In this document: positions 6,648-55,661 of the stretch, in pieces
Layout of the letters: the number at the start of each line of letters is the position of its first letter
Numbering within the stretch: the first letter of the stretch is position 1
Assembly (NCBI RefSeq): GCF_036287235.1
Contig: NZ_CP142850.1
Span: 1,319,127-1,383,126 of the forward strand
DNA from: Exiguobacterium sp. 9-2
Lineage (GTDB): Bacteria > Bacillota > Bacilli > Exiguobacteriales > Exiguobacteriaceae
DNA: 64,000 bases
Reading direction: 5' to 3'
The notes under the pieces: model-generated
Told to the model about the DNA's origin: nothing
Seen by the model: the letters and a program-made list of their open reading frames with translations, nothing else
The model's database searches: none
Program-made: the position numbers and the translations under genes

Positions 6648-6887
6648 CTATAGTTCGATGGCATCGATGACGCCTTCAGGATACTCCCAGACATTGCCTT
6701 CAATGAGCCATTGATGATGGCAGTTCGGACAAGCGACTTCCGAAGAAAAGTCATACTGGATTTCGAGACCTAAGCGCCGGTCTTCGTACGCTACACTATG
6801 TAAATCTTCAATGAGAATCTCATCCTTGAATTTCTCGCGACAACGTGGACATTTGAATTTCGAATAATGACTGATGACCGTATCCAT
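6648..6887 (-). CDS. Small zinc-ribbon protein
   Basis: A 79-residue protein with two Cys pairs, CPRC at about 14-17 and CPNC at about 53-56, the usual arrangement of a zinc ribbon. The ATG at 6887 is favoured over a TTG nine bases upstream because AGGAG (6897-6901) is correctly spaced only for the ATG. It resembles small CpXC-like zinc-ribbon proteins of unknown function. A near-perfect cre-like sequence lies about 45 bases upstream. Confidence 0.7.
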   Translation of the reverse strand: MDTVISHYSKFKCPRCREKFKDEILIEDLHSVAYEDRRLGLEIQYDFSSEVACPNCHHQWLIEGNVWEYPEGVIDAIEL

Positions 6888-45421: not shown

Positions 45422-45573
45422 TACGTGACAATTTAAATAAAAGTGTCCTTACTTAATTTTCATAATATTAGTATAATCCATATCAAAATATAAGTCTATA
45501 TCTTGATAACTATCTTCTCTATAGTAAAGCTACGAAAAGAAGACGCTATTCGTTAACTATGAGAGGAGTTATT

Positions 45574-46809
45574 ATGAACAAAACTACATGGAATCCTAAT
45601 GTGAAAGTCAGACTGATAGGAGAAGGTCTTTTCAATCTGCTATTTTGGATGTACTTTCCTTTTCTAACGGTCTATTTTGGTAAAGGACTAGGGTTACAGA
45701 CTGCTGGATTAATAATGGCACTGCCCCCCTTAATAAGTATTGTCGGAAGTTTAACCGGAGGAAGCTTTGCGGATACGTTAGGGAGACGTCCTGTGATGCT
45801 GATCGGAACATTTTTGCAAATGACCATGTTTATTCTATTTGCTGTCTCTTCTTCTCCTTGGATTAATTATGTTGCCTTTATCGGAATTAATATAGGCGCA
45901 GCATTTTATCGTCCTGCTAGTTCAGCGATGATAGCGGACACAGTTCCAAAAGATGAATTGCGACAAGTGTATGCGACATTTATGACCGTGAACAATATTG
46001 GTGCCGTTTTAGGACCAATCATTGGAGCAGTCTTCTTTTTTCAACATCGTCAACTGTTATTGTGGACCTGTGCAATAGTTCTCTTTCTTTACTTCATAAC
46101 GATCTATTTTATTGTTAGTGAAACCTTACCTGTCCGATCCAAGCAAAAAGATGTAACGACCCCACTTAAATATGCGTTTCAGTCTAAGTGGTCTGGCTAT
46201 CGACTTATTCTCAAAGATCGTATTTTTCTGCTATACGTAATTGCGGGAACCTGTTCACTCTTCCCAGTGATGCAACTCGATCTCTACTTACCAGTTTACG
46301 TGATAGAGAATGTGCCTAAACAACCTCTCGTACCGCACTTGCTGGATTCTTTTCAGCTCACGAGCCAATCCATTTTTGGCTATCTGGTAGGCTTTAATGG
46401 TCTTTTGTTTGTCATCTTGATCCTTCCCGTAACGAATCGACTTAAAAATTGGTCAGAAAGACGTCTCTTCGTCGTTTCGACCTTACTTGCAGGAGGAGGT
46501 ACATTTTTAGTCGGATGGAATAACAACATCTGGTTTTTGTTTGGTTGTACGCTCATCTTCACGTTAGGTGAGATCATGCGTACACCAGTCACGCAGAGTT
46601 TCATCGGTCATTATGCTCCAGAGGAGGCAAGAGGTCAGTATCTAGCTGCTGATAGTCTTCAAAACACACTTGGTAAGACGCTAGCACCTCTCGCTATCTA
46701 CGCATCAGGATGGATCGCCCCGCTTGGTATCTTCACTATCATTCTCCTTTTTGCTATCATTGGAGCTTGTTTATATCTGCAATTATTTAGACTGTATTCT
46801 CCCACTTGA
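45574..46809 (+). CDS. MFS multidrug-type transporter
   Basis: ATG at 45574, five bases after GAGAGGAG. The 411-residue protein has about 12 helices and the MFS loop motif GGSFADTLGRRPVMLIG between helices 2 and 3, with NIGAVLGPIIGAVFF as the antiporter-like motif C near residue 135. This fits drug:proton exporters of the DHA1/YttB-like group. It stands alone between gene-poor stretches. Substrate unknown. Confidence 0.8.
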   Translation: MNKTTWNPNVKVRLIGEGLFNLLFWMYFPFLTVYFGKGLGLQTAGLIMALPPLISIVGSLTGGSFADTLGRRPVMLIGTFLQMTMFILFAVSSSPWINYVAFIGINIGAAFYRPASSAMIADTVPKDELRQVYATFMTVNNIGAVLGPIIGAVFFFQHRQLLLWTCAIVLFLYFITIYFIVSETLPVRSKQKDVTTPLKYAFQSKWSGYRLILKDRIFLLYVIAGTCSLFPVMQLDLYLPVYVIENVPKQPLVPHLLDSFQLTSQSIFGYLVGFNGLLFVILILPVTNRLKNWSERRLFVVSTLLAGGGTFLVGWNNNIWFLFGCTLIFTLGEIMRTPVTQSFIGHYAPEEARGQYLAADSLQNTLGKTLAPLAIYASGWIAPLGIFTIILLFAIIGACLYLQLFRLYSPT

Positions 46810-46936
46810 CAATCAGGTTGATAATACAAAGTGTACGATTACAAATAAAATATTAATTTAGGCTTTAGAATGATTTCACAAAAATAATAATTACTATAGA
46901 TAATTAATATCAGATAAATGCTATCTAAAATATCTT

Positions 46937-47040
46937 AAATCAGCATGAACGAGATGATTTCGATTTCAACATTTCGCGACAATGAGTAAGAAATCGTCCC
47001 CGAGAGTTGATTAACTCATGACCAGAAATGCTGATTTTTT
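46937..47040 (+). ncRNA. Candidate structured RNA of about 104 nt
   Basis: AAATCAGCAT (46937-46946) pairs exactly with ATGCTGATTT (47028-47037), closing a domain that contains a second helix GATGATTTC/GAAATCGTC (46953-46961 / 46990-46998, one G-U pair) and a hairpin GAGTT-GATT-AACTC (47004-47017). The closing strand runs into TTTTTT. So three helices and an intrinsic terminator occur together in a 370-base gap between the MFS and kinase genes. I recognise no known riboswitch or sRNA consensus. It could be a small RNA or a relic leader. The rest of 46,810-47,184 shows nothing definite. Confidence 0.45.
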
Positions 47041-47184
47041 ACTGTTGCCTTGGTTATGTATTCCGCTAACAATAAAGGAATAGTTGGAATTAGTAAAATA
47101 GGATAAGCTAGCAAAAGGACGGATCAGTTATTTTAGAGCTCGATAGAAATTTGTTCTTAATATCAAACAAGGAAGGATTTGAAA

Positions 47185-48369
47185 ATGAGTAATCGTTCCA
47201 ACACTATGAATAAAACAGATGATCTTTTAACCATTTCTCGAGTTCCCATAATATTTTGGATTCTTCTTGTTTATGTAGTAGCTTTACTTCTACAGTTTGT
47301 TAATCAAATTAAATTCTTAGAAAGTCTATTTTTTACATCTATTTTTTCACTACATGCGTTTATGCATTGGTTCTCGTACAAATTTAAAGAAAAGGCTGTC
47401 TGGTATTATCTAGCGTTGCAGGGATTCTTGGTTTTTACAGCTGCTATTATACTTCCTAAAGGTGCACCTGTCGTATTAATCGGATTGCTAACGCTTTTGA
47501 TAGCGCAGAGTATTGTAAAACTGCAGAGTATTTTCAAAGTTTTTCTCACCTTTATTCTTTACTATGGTGTTTATTGCTTATTTATTGTGCGTGTTTATGG
47601 ATTAAGTGAACTACCATTGTTCATTTTGATTTTGTTTTTCATACTCGTCATTGTTATTTTTTATTCCGTCATATATTCCAGAGAAGTAAAGACACGTATA
47701 CGGATGGAGTATTATTTAAAGGAATTAGAGCTAGCTTATGAAAGAGTGGAAGAGTTAACGTTATTAAATGAAAGGCAACGGATGGCACGTGATCTTCACG
47801 ATACTTTAGCCCAAGGCGTTGCAGGTTTAGTGATGCAAATGGAAGCACTGGATGCCTATTTAATTAAAAATGACATTGAAAAATCACGACACATCGTTCA
47901 GATGTCGATGCAACAGGCGCGGAATACGTTGAAAGAAGCAAGGCAATCTATTGATAGTTTACGATCTTACTCTCAAGAAAATAAAGATTTCTCTCAAGCA
48001 GTACTGAAGATGATAGATGAATTTAAAAATTTCTCCACTCTTGAGGTAAGCGAACAAGTTGAAGATAAAATCTATATTCCTAGCATAGTCTCTACACACT
48101 GTTTGTTTATTTTGAGTGAATGTCTAACTAATATAGTGAAGCATGCTAACGCGCAAACGGTATTTGTCACACTAATGATTACCGATAATAGACTGATTTT
48201 AAAAATAAAAGATGATGGCATAGGATTTAATGTCGAAAGGAAGAGTCAACTTATAAAAAACTATGGTATTTTGGGTTTACAGGAACGAGTACGTTTATTG
48301 AATGGAGACCTTGAAATAAAGAGTACCATCGCTCTTGGGACAGAAGTCATTATTCGAATTCCGATTTAA
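47185..48369 (+). CDS. Sensor histidine kinase, NarL-class (YdfH/LiaS-like)
   Basis: ATG at 47185, seven bases after AAGGA. The 394-residue protein has five to six N-terminal helices (to about residue 170), a HisKA_3 phosphoacceptor site ERQRMARDLHDTLAQGVAGL (His around 208) and an ATPase domain with LSECLTNIVKHANAQTVFVT, IKDDGIGFN and YGILGLQERVRLLNG. The response regulator follows 18 bases later and an MMPL transporter after that, the same order as ydfH-ydfI-ydfJ of Bacillus subtilis, where the pair activates the transporter. The signal is probably membrane-perturbing compounds (inferred). Confidence 0.88.
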   Translation: MSNRSNTMNKTDDLLTISRVPIIFWILLVYVVALLLQFVNQIKFLESLFFTSIFSLHAFMHWFSYKFKEKAVWYYLALQGFLVFTAAIILPKGAPVVLIGLLTLLIAQSIVKLQSIFKVFLTFILYYGVYCLFIVRVYGLSELPLFILILFFILVIVIFYSVIYSREVKTRIRMEYYLKELELAYERVEELTLLNERQRMARDLHDTLAQGVAGLVMQMEALDAYLIKNDIEKSRHIVQMSMQQARNTLKEARQSIDSLRSYSQENKDFSQAVLKMIDEFKNFSTLEVSEQVEDKIYIPSIVSTHCLFILSECLTNIVKHANAQTVFVTLMITDNRLILKIKDDGIGFNVERKSQLIKNYGILGLQERVRLLNGDLEIKSTIALGTEVIIRIPI

Positions 48370-48387: not shown

Positions 48388-49044
48388 ATGAAGAACAAAG
48401 TCATGATCGTCGACGACCACTTTGTAGTACGAGAAGGATTAAAGCTCATTTTAGAAAGTGATGATTCTTTTCAGATCATCGGAGAAGCTGAAAATGGAAA
48501 AGTCGCTCTTGAATTGTTAACAGGAATTCAACCGGATGTCATTCTGATGGATTTAAATATGCCGATACGAAGCGGCTTGGAAACAATTAAAGCATTGAAC
48601 GATCAAAATAATTCGATTCCGATTATCATACTGACAACCTATAACGAAGACGAATTAATGGTTGAAGGAATCGGATTAGGGGCTAAAGGATATTTGCTTA
48701 AAGATGCAAGTCGAGATCATTTATTTAGAACAATAAATGCGGCCATTCGAGGAGAGACTCTTCTTCAGCCTGAAATAATGAATAGGTTACTTGCTTTTAA
48801 TAAAAAGAGTGTGGCAAAAACGAGTCAACCGAACAAAGCAATGCTCACACCAAAGGAGCTTATAATTTTGCATGCATTGGCTAGAGGTACTAAAACCAAA
48901 AATATCGCTTCAGACATGAACATTGCAGAAAGGACAGTAAAAGCCCATTTAACTACTATCTATAATAAATTAGGGGTAAATAGTAGAACTGAAGCCGTTG
49001 TCATTGCCCTGACCGAAGGATATATAGAATTTGGAATAGAATAA
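48388..49044 (+). CDS. NarL/LuxR-type response regulator (YdfI-like)
   Basis: A 218-residue protein. The receiver domain has the acidic pair in MIVDDHFVVREGLKLIL, the phospho-Asp in PDVILMDLNMP, and Lys in GYLLKDA. The C-terminal domain reads LTPKELIILHALARGTKTKN and IAERTVKAHLTTIYNKLGVN, the GerE-type helix-turn-helix. It pairs with the kinase upstream and most likely activates the downstream transporter. Terminator follows the gene. Confidence 0.9.
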   Translation: MKNKVMIVDDHFVVREGLKLILESDDSFQIIGEAENGKVALELLTGIQPDVILMDLNMPIRSGLETIKALNDQNNSIPIIILTTYNEDELMVEGIGLGAKGYLLKDASRDHLFRTINAAIRGETLLQPEIMNRLLAFNKKSVAKTSQPNKAMLTPKELIILHALARGTKTKNIASDMNIAERTVKAHLTTIYNKLGVNSRTEAVVIALTEGYIEFGIE

Positions 49045-49053
49045 CTTGCCCTT

Positions 49054-49091
49054 TCGTACATTCGTTTGCTACCCGAATGTACGATTTTTTT
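49054..49091 (+). terminator. Terminator after the response regulator
   Basis: TCGTACATTCG and CGAATGTACGA form an 11-bp stem with a 9-base loop and seven T. The MMPL gene thus needs its own promoter in the 63 bases that follow, consistent with separate activation by the response regulator. Confidence 0.9.
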
Positions 49092-49154: not shown

Positions 49155-51353
49155 ATGGCAAAAAAGTTATACAGATTAGGATATTGGGCAGCAGAGCATA
49201 GAAAAAAAGTGTTTGGAGGAACACTCTGTCTGTTGGTACTGACTATTGTACTCACATTGAGTTTCGGAATTTCTTTCAAGGAAGAAATGACAATCCCTGG
49301 TACGAAGTCAGAACAAGCAGGGAAACTATTAGCAAAAGAATTTCCACCTGTTTCTTCAGGCGGTCAAATTCAAATAGTCATGAAAGCACCTCGTAATGAA
49401 CGCTTAGATGATCAGCGAAATAGTCATATAATCGAGAAAATGGTAAAAGAAATTCAGAAGGATTCAGAAGTTGTTACTGTGGCACTTCCAATTGAACTGG
49501 GCAATTTGAATAAAGAGAAAACAATTGGTTATGCAACAGTGACATATAAACAACCTTCAAACAAAGTAACAGAAGCATCCAAAGAAAAAGTATTGAAAAG
49601 CATCAAAATAACTAAAGCAAAAGGGATTCAAACTGAATTAGCTGGAGACGTTGCCTTTTCAGAACTTGAAATCGGTGGGATTACAGAAGCTCTTGGTGTC
49701 GCAGTAGCATATATGATTTTAGCTTTGACATTCACTTCATTTCTTGCAGCGGGAATGCCTATTTTAAGTGCTGTCGTTGGGCTCGGTATTGGTATTCTAT
49801 TGATATTAGCCGGAACCAATTTCTTAGACATTCCTTCTTTCGCTCTTTCCCTAGCTGCTATGTTAGGATTAGCCGTCGGAATCGATTATGCCCTATTCAT
49901 CATTTCTCGCTATCGACAACAAATAGCGGGTGGAGATACAGTCAAAGAGGCTGTGGCAATTGCTACGGGAACTGCTGGAAGTGCAGTAGTTTTCGCAGGT
50001 GCTACTGTAATCATTGCTCTTTTAGGCTTATCTACGACAGGAATCCCGTTTTTAACTATGATGGGTATTTCAGCATCACTATGTGTATTCGTAGCTATTC
50101 TTATTGCGATCATACTTGTTCCTGCAATTTTAGGCGCATTAGGTCATAAAATGGATCCAACAAGACAGAATACGTTGTTACGCAGTATTAGTCGCTTCTC
50201 GAATAAAAAAGAAAGTGGCTATGAAAAATGGGGGAAGTTTATTCTGAAACGTCCTTTGTTCATTAGTATGCTTGCAGTAAGTTTACTATTGATCATCTCT
50301 ATCCCATTTTTCCATATGCAATTGGGCTTGCCTAACAATGGAACAAAATCGGAAGAGACAACGGAAAGAAGGGCCTATGATTTATTAGCTGAAGCATATG
50401 GACCCGGGTACCATGCCCCGTTAATACTCGTTGCCGAGAAAAACCAATCGGATATTGATGTAAATAAAGCGCTATCTACACTTACGAAGAAACTAAAGCA
50501 TGTAAATGGAGTCGAAAATGTAAGTCCGGCAGTCCCGAACAAAACTTCAAATGTATTCATGTTGTCGGTGACACCTTCAACAGGTCCAGATGATCCTAAA
50601 ACGAGTTATTTGGTTAAGGCGTTAAGAGGAGACATAAAAAAAATCGCCAATCAAAATGGATTAAACTTAATGCTCACCGGAAGTACAGCCGTGAATATCG
50701 ATATTTCTGACAAACTACAAAACGCACTACCGATTTTTGCAATGTTAATTGTTGGTTTTGCATTTATTTTGTTAATGTTAGTCTTCCGTTCGATTTTAGT
50801 TCCGCTTAAAGCAGTATTAGGGTTTTTATTATCACTTGGTGCGACGTTAGGTTTTGTGGTATTCGTCATACAGGATGGTCATTTTATTGATTTGTTTGGC
50901 TTTCCTACAGCTAGTCCTGTATTGAGTTTCTTACCAGTCATCGTAATTGGTATTCTTTTTGGACTTGCTATGGACTATGAAGTTTTCTTGGTTTCTCGAA
51001 TGCGAGAAGAATTCACACGTACTGCCAATGCAAAACAAGCTATTTTAACGGGCATAAAAGAGAGTGGTGGTGTAGTGACAGCTGCAGGACTCATTATGAT
51101 GGCCGTGTTTGTAGGCTTTATGATGGCACCTGATCCTATCATCAAGTCCATGGGTTTTGCCTTAACGTTTGGCGTCCTTTTTGATGCCTTTATTATCCGG
51201 ATGACGCTTGTTCCGGCAATCATGTTTCTGTTAGGAGACAAGGCGTGGTATCTACCTAAATGGCTAGATCGTATCTTGCCAAACATAGATATTGAAGGTC
51301 ATACGATTTCTGATAAAGGAAAAATGAGACAAAAACAAGTAGTGAATAAGTAA
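49155..51353 (+). CDS. MMPL/RND family transporter (YdfJ-like)
   Basis: A 732-residue membrane protein with the MMPL layout: helix 1 at about 20-40, an extracellular domain, six helices at about 175-330, a second extracellular domain and a second six-helix bundle from about 525. Proton-relay Asp residues lie in LGLAVGIDYALFIISRYRQQ and FGLAMDYEVFLVSRMREEF. Such proteins export lipids, siderophores or hydrophobic drugs. Ribosome site GGTGGAGG. Together with the upstream two-component genes this matches YdfHIJ. Confidence 0.88.
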   Translation: MAKKLYRLGYWAAEHRKKVFGGTLCLLVLTIVLTLSFGISFKEEMTIPGTKSEQAGKLLAKEFPPVSSGGQIQIVMKAPRNERLDDQRNSHIIEKMVKEIQKDSEVVTVALPIELGNLNKEKTIGYATVTYKQPSNKVTEASKEKVLKSIKITKAKGIQTELAGDVAFSELEIGGITEALGVAVAYMILALTFTSFLAAGMPILSAVVGLGIGILLILAGTNFLDIPSFALSLAAMLGLAVGIDYALFIISRYRQQIAGGDTVKEAVAIATGTAGSAVVFAGATVIIALLGLSTTGIPFLTMMGISASLCVFVAILIAIILVPAILGALGHKMDPTRQNTLLRSISRFSNKKESGYEKWGKFILKRPLFISMLAVSLLLIISIPFFHMQLGLPNNGTKSEETTERRAYDLLAEAYGPGYHAPLILVAEKNQSDIDVNKALSTLTKKLKHVNGVENVSPAVPNKTSNVFMLSVTPSTGPDDPKTSYLVKALRGDIKKIANQNGLNLMLTGSTAVNIDISDKLQNALPIFAMLIVGFAFILLMLVFRSILVPLKAVLGFLLSLGATLGFVVFVIQDGHFIDLFGFPTASPVLSFLPVIVIGILFGLAMDYEVFLVSRMREEFTRTANAKQAILTGIKESGGVVTAAGLIMMAVFVGFMMAPDPIIKSMGFALTFGVLFDAFIIRMTLVPAIMFLLGDKAWYLPKWLDRILPNIDIEGHTISDKGKMRQKQVVNK

Positions 51354-52761: not shown

Positions 52762-53139
52762 TCATAGTGTCAATTCGATTACGTTTCCTTCCGGATCCGC
52801 GACCGTACTCTCATAATAACCGTCTCCCGTCGTCCGCGGACCATCGAGATGTGTTACACCTGCATCCCGTAACCGAGCCGTCCAGTCATCGACCGCTTGT
52901 TTACTGCCGAGCGAAAAGGCGAAGTGGGCGTAACCAAGGGCGTTCGATGTCCGTTCCGTGATGTCTGTCCGTTGCATCAACTCAAGACGCGCTCCACTTG
53001 AGAACGTCAAGAAGTACGAACTGAAACCTTTAACGGCATTTTCATAACGATTATTTGATTTAGCATCAAAATGCGCTTCATAAAATTGGCGCATTCCTTC
53101 AAGGTCTGCCACCCATAGTGCGATATGTTCAATCTTCAT
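52762..53139 (-). CDS. VOC (glyoxalase/bleomycin-resistance fold) protein
   Basis: A 125-residue protein with two beta-alpha-beta-beta-beta halves: MKIEHIALWVADLEGMRQFY and, from about residue 70, GYAHFAFSLGSKQAVDDWTA, ending DGYYESTVADPEGNVIELTL. Metal-binding positions His5, Glu53 region, His73 and Glu122 fit the fold. Function could be a lyase, dioxygenase-like or resistance enzyme; small stand-alone members are mostly uncharacterised. It starts 18 bases after the MFS gene on the same strand, so both may be cotranscribed. Confidence 0.8.
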   Translation of the reverse strand: MKIEHIALWVADLEGMRQFYEAHFDAKSNNRYENAVKGFSSYFLTFSSGARLELMQRTDITERTSNALGYAHFAFSLGSKQAVDDWTARLRDAGVTHLDGPRTTGDGYYESTVADPEGNVIELTL

Positions 53140-53157
53140 TAATTATCTTCCTTTCTT

Positions 53158-54321
53158 TTATGACGCTTTCGCTAATCGTTTTCTGATTAACATGCGGTTC
53201 AAGCCTTCCGTTGCGATCAACATCAAGAAAATGAGACTGATCGTGAACCAATGGAACAACGACAAGGAGTAAGAGGTTGCAAGCCAACCGAACAGTGGTG
53301 GCATGAACGTACTACCGGTATAGGCGAATGCCATCTGCATGCCCATTAACCGTTGCGCCGCAGCTTCTCCGAATCGAACCGGTGTCTCATGGAGCATTGC
53401 CGGATAAATCGGAGCGAGACCGAGCCCGACGAGTACGAAACCGAGTGGCATCCAAGCAGCAGGTGCAAGAATGAAGCAGATTGCACCGATCAAGGCCGTC
53501 CATTGACCGACGCGAATCAAGCGACGGTTCGACCAGCGGAGGGATAGAAAACCACTAATGAAGCGACCTGCCGTGATGCTACCGTAGTAGACGGAAACCC
53601 AAGTTGCAGCAGACGTCACCGAAAACGACCGGACTTGGACGAGGTAACTACTTCCCCAAAGACCGACGACAGCTTCGACACCACTATAAAAGCAAAATGC
53701 AGCGAGCGCAGCCATCAGTCCACGAGGTTTTCCAGACGACATACTAGCAGTTTGGACTTGTTCGGAAACGTGTTTTGGAGCCCGTTTCCAGAGCGGCAAA
53801 CTAATGATCAAGATAATCATCAATACGAGTTGCAGTGCTCCAACGATGAGATATCCAGTGCGCCATCCGGAATCAAGCAACACGCCAGCCATGATGAGTG
53901 GACCAGCTGTCGCGCCGATGCCCCAGAAGCAATGGAGCCAGTTCATATGATGGGCTTGATAATGCGTTGCAACAAAATGATTGAGTGCCGCGTCGACGAC
54001 ACCGCCACCGAGTCCAAGCGGAATCGCAAGAACAAAGAGCCAAATCAGCGAAGGGGCAATGAAAAAGCCGAGCAATGCAAGTGCTGTCAGACCAGCAGAA
54101 ACTGCCGTAATTGGTCCCGTCGAATATCGCGCGATCAATCGACCGCTAAACAGACTAGAAACGATTGTTCCGGCAGCAATCGTCATGAAGAGCCAACCTG
54201 CCATATCGAGCGGGGCGTCGAGGTCGAGCCGCATCACCGGCCAGGCCGTACCGAGCAAGGCGTCCGGAAGTCCGAGACTGATGAAAGCCAGATAAATCAG
54301 AGGTAACAGTAAACGAGTCAT
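53158..54321 (-). CDS. MFS transporter, probably sugar-specific (FucP/YfkF-like)
   Basis: A 387-residue, 12-helix protein beginning RLLLPLIYLAFISLGLPDAL, with GLPDALLGTAWPVMRLDL typical of the FHS-type MFS branch, and GLGGGVVDAALNHFVATHYQ, HHMNWLHCFWGIGATAGPLI. This branch imports fucose, glucose or related sugars. It overlaps the upstream ROK regulator by four bases (ATGA), so the two are coupled. Substrate unknown, probably the effector sugar of the regulator. Confidence 0.8.
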   Translation of the reverse strand: MTRLLLPLIYLAFISLGLPDALLGTAWPVMRLDLDAPLDMAGWLFMTIAAGTIVSSLFSGRLIARYSTGPITAVSAGLTALALLGFFIAPSLIWLFVLAIPLGLGGGVVDAALNHFVATHYQAHHMNWLHCFWGIGATAGPLIMAGVLLDSGWRTGYLIVGALQLVLMIILIISLPLWKRAPKHVSEQVQTASMSSGKPRGLMAALAAFCFYSGVEAVVGLWGSSYLVQVRSFSVTSAATWVSVYYGSITAGRFISGFLSLRWSNRRLIRVGQWTALIGAICFILAPAAWMPLGFVLVGLGLAPIYPAMLHETPVRFGEAAAQRLMGMQMAFAYTGSTFMPPLFGWLATSYSLSLFHWFTISLIFLMLIATEGLNRMLIRKRLAKAS

Positions 54322-55301
54322 CGGGTAAGTCCTCCTAACGGAATCTCTTTAATGAAGGATTGGACGCCGAGTTGGACCAGACCATCCAAATAATCGGTTT
54401 CCCAGTCACTTTGGCGCAACTGTGGTAATTTGTCGAGTGGAAATCGTTTGGCGCATCGATCTGTCACATGTGTCAACACATCATCGGTGACATCAGATGC
54501 TGCAAACAAGATGACGTCCGGGTTTAAGGTGATGGTAAATGAAAGGATGATCCGACTCAATGCTTCATACCAGTCGTCAGAGTATGATGAAGTCGTCGCG
54601 AGAACTTGGCCGACATTTCGAGTTTCGTCAAACGGGATGAACGAGATTTCCCCAGCAAAGTGATGCGCTCCGCGGACGACGCTGCCGGATACGGCGACAC
54701 CAGCTCCAGGTCCGTTCGTTCCGAGATAAACGTAGACAGTCGTTTCGTTTTCCTGAGTTGGAGCGATGACAGCCGCGTTCATGTCATTCTCGACGACGAC
54801 CGGTCGAGCGAACCGTTCAGTCAGTTCTTGTTGCAACGGGCGACCGTCAAGCGTCGGATAATCCGGAGCGAACAGGATGGATCCTGAGGCATCAATGGCA
54901 CCTGCGACACCAATTATTAGTGTCTGAATACGTGGATAGTCCTTCAGTAAAATGGTTAATGTTCTCAATAAGATCGACATATGGTTCGATGAATTAATTA
55001 ATATGCGATCAGTCGCGATCAGGTTACCACCTACATCATGAATCCGGTATTGCAGATACGTACGTTCGATGAATAAAGCGAGCCCATGAAAGCGATCCGT
55101 ACGATACCGGTAACGTTTTGCAGGACGTCCCCCACGGATCAACTCGAGCGGCGTTTCTTCGATTTCCTGAGCGGCGAGTAACAGATCGATTTGTTTACTC
55201 GTTGTTGGAAAACTGACGTCTAATACTTGTCGAATGGCAGGGATCGTGTCGAGATGCGCCATCAGAAAAGCATGACGAGTCCGTGAAATAAGTTCAGACA
55301 A
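54318..55301 (-). CDS. ROK family transcriptional regulator or sugar kinase-like protein
   Basis: TTG start at 55301 with GGGGG eight bases upstream. Residues 1-70 are compatible with a winged helix (RQVLDVSFPTTSKQIDLLLA). The rest is a ROK domain: VVENDMNAAVIAP, VYLGTNGPGAGVAVSGSVVR and GAHHFAGEISF. The usual Cys-rich zinc motif CGCxGC of ROK kinases is not seen, favouring a regulator. A perfect palindrome 23 bases upstream of the start probably is its operator. It is the first gene of the regulator-transporter pair. Confidence 0.8.
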   Translation of the reverse strand: MSELISRTRHAFLMAHLDTIPAIRQVLDVSFPTTSKQIDLLLAAQEIEETPLELIRGGRPAKRYRYRTDRFHGLALFIERTYLQYRIHDVGGNLIATDRILINSSNHMSILLRTLTILLKDYPRIQTLIIGVAGAIDASGSILFAPDYPTLDGRPLQQELTERFARPVVVENDMNAAVIAPTQENETTVYVYLGTNGPGAGVAVSGSVVRGAHHFAGEISFIPFDETRNVGQVLATTSSYSDDWYEALSRIILSFTITLNPDVILFAASDVTDDVLTHVTDRCAKRFPLDKLPQLRQSDWETDYLDGLVQLGVQSFIKEIPLGGLTR

Positions 55302-55323
55302 AATAATGCCCCCTATACAAGTA

Positions 55324-55347
55324 ACTTATTAAAATAATTTAATAAGT
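55324..55347. promoter_or_regulatory. Operator palindrome of the ROK-MFS operon
   Basis: ACTTATTAAA-ATAA-TTTAATAAGT is a perfect 10-bp inverted repeat with a 4-base spacer, similar in size and AT-richness to ROK repressor sites. It lies 23 bases upstream of the start codon, where bound protein would block transcription. Confidence 0.7.
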
Positions 55348-55661
55348 ATTGGTTTTAGTATAGCAGATCTTAAGAAGACAATGATAAAAAAATTGTGAAA
55401 AATTATACTCTGAACTAGAAGGGGGATGATGAAAAAGTTCTTTCGTGTGTTTTTATATTTAAATGGGAATAATCGCAAAGCCAATTAGATGATTTGACTG
55501 TCTAAATGCGACAATTCAATAAAATGTCCGCACCTATACCGATTCAATTTATCAATCAGTAAGTCATACGATGATGACTGATTTGAGTAGAACAATCCTG
55601 ACAATGAAAGCGTCTCGTCGATTGTTTTCAAGTTTTCACCAGTTTTTGAATTCATTCAAAT

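Follow-up and report, generated by a model that had tools for sequence, protein, structure and literature searches.

Organisation of the locus

The window, by which we mean the whole stretch of 64,000 nt from Exiguobacterium sp. 9-2 that was analysed here and in whose coordinates positions are given, contains at 46937–47040 a 104-nt element on the forward strand. It lies within a gene-free gap of 375 nt (46810–47184), with an MFS exporter gene (45559–46809, forward strand, identified from the ORF list and by the Pfam profile MFS_1) on the left and a sensor kinase gene on the right. An earlier note on this DNA had described the gap as free of genes and as placed between an exporter and a two-component system, and both statements hold, as no ORF of at least 50 aa occurs between 46810 and 47178 and the MFS gene is followed, downstream of the element, by genes for a HisKA_3 sensor kinase (47185–48369) and a NarL-type response regulator with Response_reg and GerE domains (48388–49044). 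The kinase gene starts with the ATG at 47185, just before which stands AAGGAAGGA, and the regulator gene is followed by that of an MMPL-family transporter (49155–51353); all three genes are on the forward strand and were named from profile matches.

The stretch immediately upstream of the element (46816–46936, forward strand) is the first part of a block with homology to another genome of the genus, G007 (75–85% identity per 20-nt bin), and holds two candidate promoters. The first is the pair TTCACA-18-GATAAT at 46875–46904, with 10 of 12 letters in agreement, and the second a weaker pair, TTAATA-16-TAAAAT at 46904–46931, with 9 of 12 letters and its −10 hexamer TAAAAT at 46926–46931. A start from the second pair would fall at about 46938, which is the 5′ end of the element. 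The region holds six promoter-like sites against an expectation of 3.5 (sd 1.9), a number near chance, and none is listed on the forward strand between the element and 47185.

An operon resembling ydfHI–ydfJ

The order of kinase, NarL-type regulator and MMPL transporter, as given by the profiles, is of the ydfHI–ydfJ type. The gap between the regulator and transporter genes holds ACCCGAATGTAC, which agrees in 11 of 12 letters with GCCCRAAYGTAC, the sequence that we take to be the 12-mer consensus of YdfI; the exact 12-mer is absent from the window. In Niallia circulans (locus L040) similar ORFs, read from their translations, occur in the same order, with a kinase 46% identical to that of the window, and the presumed 12-mer is present at 12 of 12 letters in the corresponding gap. 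From the gene order and a palindrome containing this 12-mer, the downstream genes are read as resembling an operon of the ydfHI–ydfJ type. The B. subtilis ydfHI–ydfJ genes share with the window the order of kinase, NarL-type regulator and MMPL/RND transporter, whereas the YdfI sites are arranged there in tandem and those of the window and of Niallia form an inverted repeat. According to the title of a paper by Serizawa and Sekiguchi (2005), cited in PMC3246441, YdfHI regulates ydfJ in Bacillus subtilis.

Two observations concern this motif. The inverted repeat CGTACATTCG...CGAATGTACG at 49055–49091 contains the presumed YdfI-type 12-mer and runs into at least seven T, so that an operator-like site and a terminator-like hairpin coincide; the layout is common to the window and N. 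circulans (L040, about 6821–6857). An 11-letter version of the motif is found in 3 of the 26 kinase loci searched.

Fold and stability of the element

The three helices that had been claimed for the element are present in the sequence and recovered by folding. P1 joins 46937–46946 to 47028–47037 in ten Watson–Crick pairs, P2 joins 46953–46961 to 46990–46998 in nine pairs including one U–G, and P3 is a hairpin of five pairs, GAGTT-GATT-AACTC, at 47004–47017 (47004–47008 with 47013–47017). A run of six T (47035–47040) adjoins and overlaps the 3′ arm of P1. The minimum free energy structure (−25.6 kcal/mol) has in addition a 4-bp helix within P2 (46965–46968 with 46983–46986) and a P3 lengthened by 2 bp. 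A three-helix fold can thus form in the leader of the present genome, where the element is single-copy.

Against dinucleotide shuffles the element has a z-score of −2.86, its stability being reached by 3 of 200, and of −2.99 in a larger run, where it is reached by 9 of 1000; these figures refer to a pattern that was chosen by eye. Mean pair probabilities are 0.93 for P1, 0.95 for P2 and 0.90 for P3, and they remain high (0.88–0.95) within the longer leader 46912–47184. The stability of the leader 46937–47184 is ordinary (77 of 300 shuffles as stable), and among 4916 segments of 104 nt taken from both strands of the window, 164 are at least as stable as the element after a regression on G+C. 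The reverse strand of the element folds nearly as well (−23.8 kcal/mol). When the 375-nt gap was shuffled 3000 times, 235 trials produced on the forward strand an inverted repeat of 10 bp spanning up to 110 nt, and a single trial produced one ending in six T, again for a pattern picked by eye; the whole window holds seven 10-bp repeats with six T, which occupy five distinct places, whereas 30 shuffles average 0.07.

Comparison with terminators and known RNA families

Intrinsic terminators are short hairpins rich in G+C with a run of T immediately behind them. The element resembles these rho-independent signals in having a stem and then a T run, and differs from them in that its stem is A+T-rich, with 3 G–C among the 10 pairs of P1, and spans an interior of 81 nt with helices of its own. 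Of the six T, three take part in P1 pairs and three lie beyond the stem, and a simple terminator scan, which rejects the element, reported no intrinsic terminator in 46600–47400. Of the earlier proposal that the element ends in six T and has its own terminator, the six T stand and the terminator is weak: the element is terminator-like at best.

The earlier reader knew of no riboswitch consensus that fitted, and in agreement with this no Rfam 15 family matched the window at gathering score. At a loose threshold (E up to 5) nothing bacterial appeared, and the three matches obtained were weak (E 0.27–4.1, at most 21 bits) and to eukaryotic families. The riboswitch and attenuator leaders of Firmicutes in Rfam are likewise multi-helix leaders with a stem and T run before an operon; unlike them, the element is without an Rfam match and no conserved core is apparent in its homologues.

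Homologues within the genus

The comparison set consisted of 18 other Exiguobacterium genomes, and the block is common to four of them (G007, G010, G011 and G016). In G007 and G010 local BLAST found homology to 46821–47027 of the window at 77% identity, and closely behind the block lies a kinase piece 84% identical to 47245–47453, which lacks a start, is cut after about 70 codons and in G010 has an internal stop as well. These start-less, truncated pieces are located at L150 7071–7295 and L151 7633–7866, and the piece of G007 is followed by transposase genes that carry rve and HTH domains. Upstream of the block G007 has a DUF2975 gene on the opposite strand, identified by profile, and the DNA there has 99% identity to that of G010; since this upstream gene differs from that of the window and the kinase stretch follows nevertheless, the block belongs with the kinase gene. 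By 20-nt bins, identity is 75–85% over 46816–46975 and falls to 55–70% over 46976–47035, so conservation within the block is lowest where the 3′ arms arise.

In G011 and G016 the block reaches 46987 at 99% identity to the window, the differences inside the element being one change and a deletion of 6 nt. Between 46987 and 46988 homology ends and an IS21-type remnant begins; a Fic gene (tested by profile in G011) follows it, homology with the window resumes at 55549, and both genomes lack the ydfHI–ydfJ-type operon. The window arrangement is taken as the older and that bearing the IS as derived, because the homology of G007 and G010 crosses the junction and a kinase piece follows it. A recent insertion that joined the two halves of the fold in the present genome was considered and is rejected, as G007 and G010 are homologous across 46987/46988 to 47027.

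No intact kinase gene with a leader of this kind was found among the 18 genomes (E 1e-40). In the remaining 14 nothing matched the block at E 0.001, or a covariance model at E 0.01, and their BLAST matches to the single sequence, all at E 0.025 or above, were judged to be chance. Single-sequence BLAST against 19 genus genomes and 398 genomes of the class recovered, of the element, only the left halves in G011 and G016; it missed G007 and G010, which were found by a search with the whole 8.6-kb segment described below and then by local BLAST. The class search also gave matches of about 30 nt each in two genomes (G025 and G366), which lie downstream of the element and before the kinase start.

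Maintenance of the fold in relatives

The alignment comprised the window, G007 and G010, and as the latter two are nearly identical it amounts to one divergent homologue, which stands before a dead gene. P2 keeps 8 of 9 pairs in both, with one double change (C–G to U–A), and P3 loses 3 of 5. P1 loses 5 of 10 on the alignment used, a count that is uncertain because BLAST-level homology stops at 47027, just before its 3′ arm. Taken over all helices, 9 of 24 pairs are broken and one of 24 shows a double change in these two nearly identical sequences before a broken gene. The retention of P2 is no better than chance, as five random transitions keep eight or nine pairs in 43% of trials. In 500 shuffles of the alignment the percentage of paired positions was reached by 69, the covariation score and the number of double changes by 183, and the further pair types by 500. 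The structure pairs 75% of the cells of the three-sequence alignment against 27–49% when slid by one to three columns, an excess that is expected, because the structure was drawn from one of the three sequences.

Independently of any alignment, 426 and 498 of 1000 shuffles are as stable as the G007 and G010 homologues, respectively, and in G007 P2 alone has −2.3 kcal/mol, and P2 with an alternative P1 +1.35 kcal/mol. This alternative comes from a different alignment of G007, in which AAACCAG lies opposite CTAGTTT before a T run of its own, with 6 of 7 pairs and one change on both sides; judged by its sequence, it may be a P1 of G007 and G010 that has diverged and contains one mismatch. The loss of structure in these genomes may itself be decay, since both homologues precede a truncated, start-less kinase piece.

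Search beyond the genus

A covariance model of the three sequences matched 4 of 398 sampled genomes of the class, all of the genus Exiguobacterium, and under the strict filters used gave no match outside the genus; with these filters it missed G016, which was found at 30.9 bits in another run. Upstream of homologous kinases the model was run over 27 loci, namely the 26 of the scan described next and L076, which like L040 came from a set of 80, and returned only weak, non-homologous matches (17.5 bits, E at least 1.1). The scan, which covered L040 and L162–L186 and took the furthest in-frame start, so that some stretches perhaps lie too far upstream, found a 10-bp arm with a T tail before none of the 26 kinase homologues of other genera, and repeats of 8–9 bp and unrelated sequence in 4 of the 26. 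In N. circulans neither the model search nor the repeat scan upstream of the kinase found a counterpart of the leader fold. The matches from plasmid and phage collections were all short and A+T-rich, with best E-values of 3e-3 to 9e-3, and were judged to be chance; a pattern search of viral contigs gave none. The passages of PMC5897336, PMC3246441, PMC10837837 and PMC5399880, drawn from the literature on ydfHI–ydfJ and on small RNAs and riboswitches of Exiguobacterium, do not describe the element; PMC10837837 presents genome-wide predictions of sRNAs in Exiguobacterium.

Interpretation of the element

We consider the element to be promoter and 5′ leader DNA of the ydfHI–ydfJ-like operon, with a fold private to the present genome, and give this reading a probability of about 55%. 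It builds on what was observed of the position of the element, the content of the operon, the regional homology in four genomes of the genus and the poor folding of the two fuller homologues. A promoter in 46875–46931 would probably start a transcript that crosses the element and reaches the ATG of the kinase gene at 47185. The three-helix fold, which gives no sign of maintenance in the lineage, would have no selected function and could at most damp read-through into the operon.

Appreciably less probable, though the strongest of the alternatives, is a lineage-specific attenuator or small RNA, in which a transcript starting at about 46938 would fold into P1–P3 and end at the T run, to be released as a free RNA or to allow regulated read-through. 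It would account for a z-score of about −3, for the rarity of P1 with six T in shuffles (1 of 3000), for pair probabilities that stay at 0.88–0.95 in 46912–47184, for a −10 hexamer placed for a start at the 5′ end of the element and for the possible diverged P1 before the T run of G007 and G010. It accords poorly with the loss of P3, and on the alignment used of P1, in the two fuller homologues, which fold like shuffles, with a stem that encloses 81 nt, has three G–C pairs, leaves three T beyond it and was passed over by the terminator scan, with a single copy in the genome and no match outside the genus among the 398 genomes of the class, and with a leader (46937–47184) whose stability is reached by 77 of 300 shuffles. 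The earlier suggestion of a regulatory RNA is not supported by conservation and covariation in related genomes, in what is a thin comparison: P3 and, on the alignment, P1 are broken, P2 is kept no better than by chance, the IS remnant cuts the element in G011 and G016 where the operon is missing too, and nothing similar precedes the 26 kinase genes.

We doubt still more that the element is a young, Exiguobacterium-specific leader RNA that attenuates the pump operon and disappeared with it from sister genomes. Were it a working attenuator, pump operons of this type would gain control at the level of RNA; for the B. subtilis counterpart, a title cited in PMC3246441 reports control by its own two-component system.

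That the inverted repeat works as DNA, as a site for a regulator or an insertion target, seems very improbable: the two strands fold about equally and an IS21-type element lies inside the repeat in G011 and G016, but the arms are lost in G007 and G010 on the alignment used, the operator-like sequence of the operon that resembles the presumed YdfI site sits at 49055–49083, and a single insertion site is no sign of preference. Least credible is a translated leader peptide, MNEMISISTFRDNE, controlling the formation of P1 and P2, for although its 14-codon ORF (46945–46989) overlaps both 5′ arms and differs in G011 and G016 by one synonymous change and the in-frame 6-nt deletion, no ribosome-binding sequence is visible before the ATG, G007 and G010 are without the first ATG and have a much changed frame, and the run of codons typical of attenuation is absent.

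As matters stand, the locus illustrates that sister genomes need not have in common a stable three-helix structure that ends in a T run within an A+T-rich gap, and homologues and transcripts are therefore needed before such a structure is called an RNA.

Mobile DNA and other observations around the locus

The segment 46988–55548 (8.6 kb, with the operon) is absent from the same site in G011, which is of the same species, and in G016; between its flanks G011 has the IS21-type remnant and the Fic gene. The IS21 family assignment is that of a copy on contig G016:C2, whose istB ATPase matches IstB_IS21 at E 1e-68 and whose larger ORF matches HTH_7, Mu-transpos_C_2 and rve, the last below cut-off. 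This copy has CAGG at both ends, and a second copy and the remnant are without a direct repeat. G016 holds four further sets of IS ends, and the two copies compared, of 2.47 kb, are 99.8% identical.

Within the segment, 52769–55369 carries glyoxalase-, MFS- and ROK-like ORFs, named from their translations. An 81%-identical second copy is present in the same genome (G000:C1:1492779–1495379), and counterparts occur at 81–84% identity in eight other genomes of the genus and more weakly in eight more. At the right edge of the segment, 55461–55546 (85 nt) has about 80% identity to a portion of a small ORF of G007 (L150 15533–15856) that has no Pfam match, and also matches places in several other genomes of the genus.

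In G007, the first part of the block (about 46830–46880 of the window) and the adjoining start of the DUF2975 gene are 76–77% like a second place in the genome of the window (G000:C1:1453292–1453420) and one in G011, and this likeness suggests a shared promoter region. In G010, DNA about 9 kb downstream of the block is 98–99% identical to two mobilizable plasmids of E. acetylicum; the plasmid matches extend over part of the G010 DNA, with RelE/RelB-type genes among the features listed.
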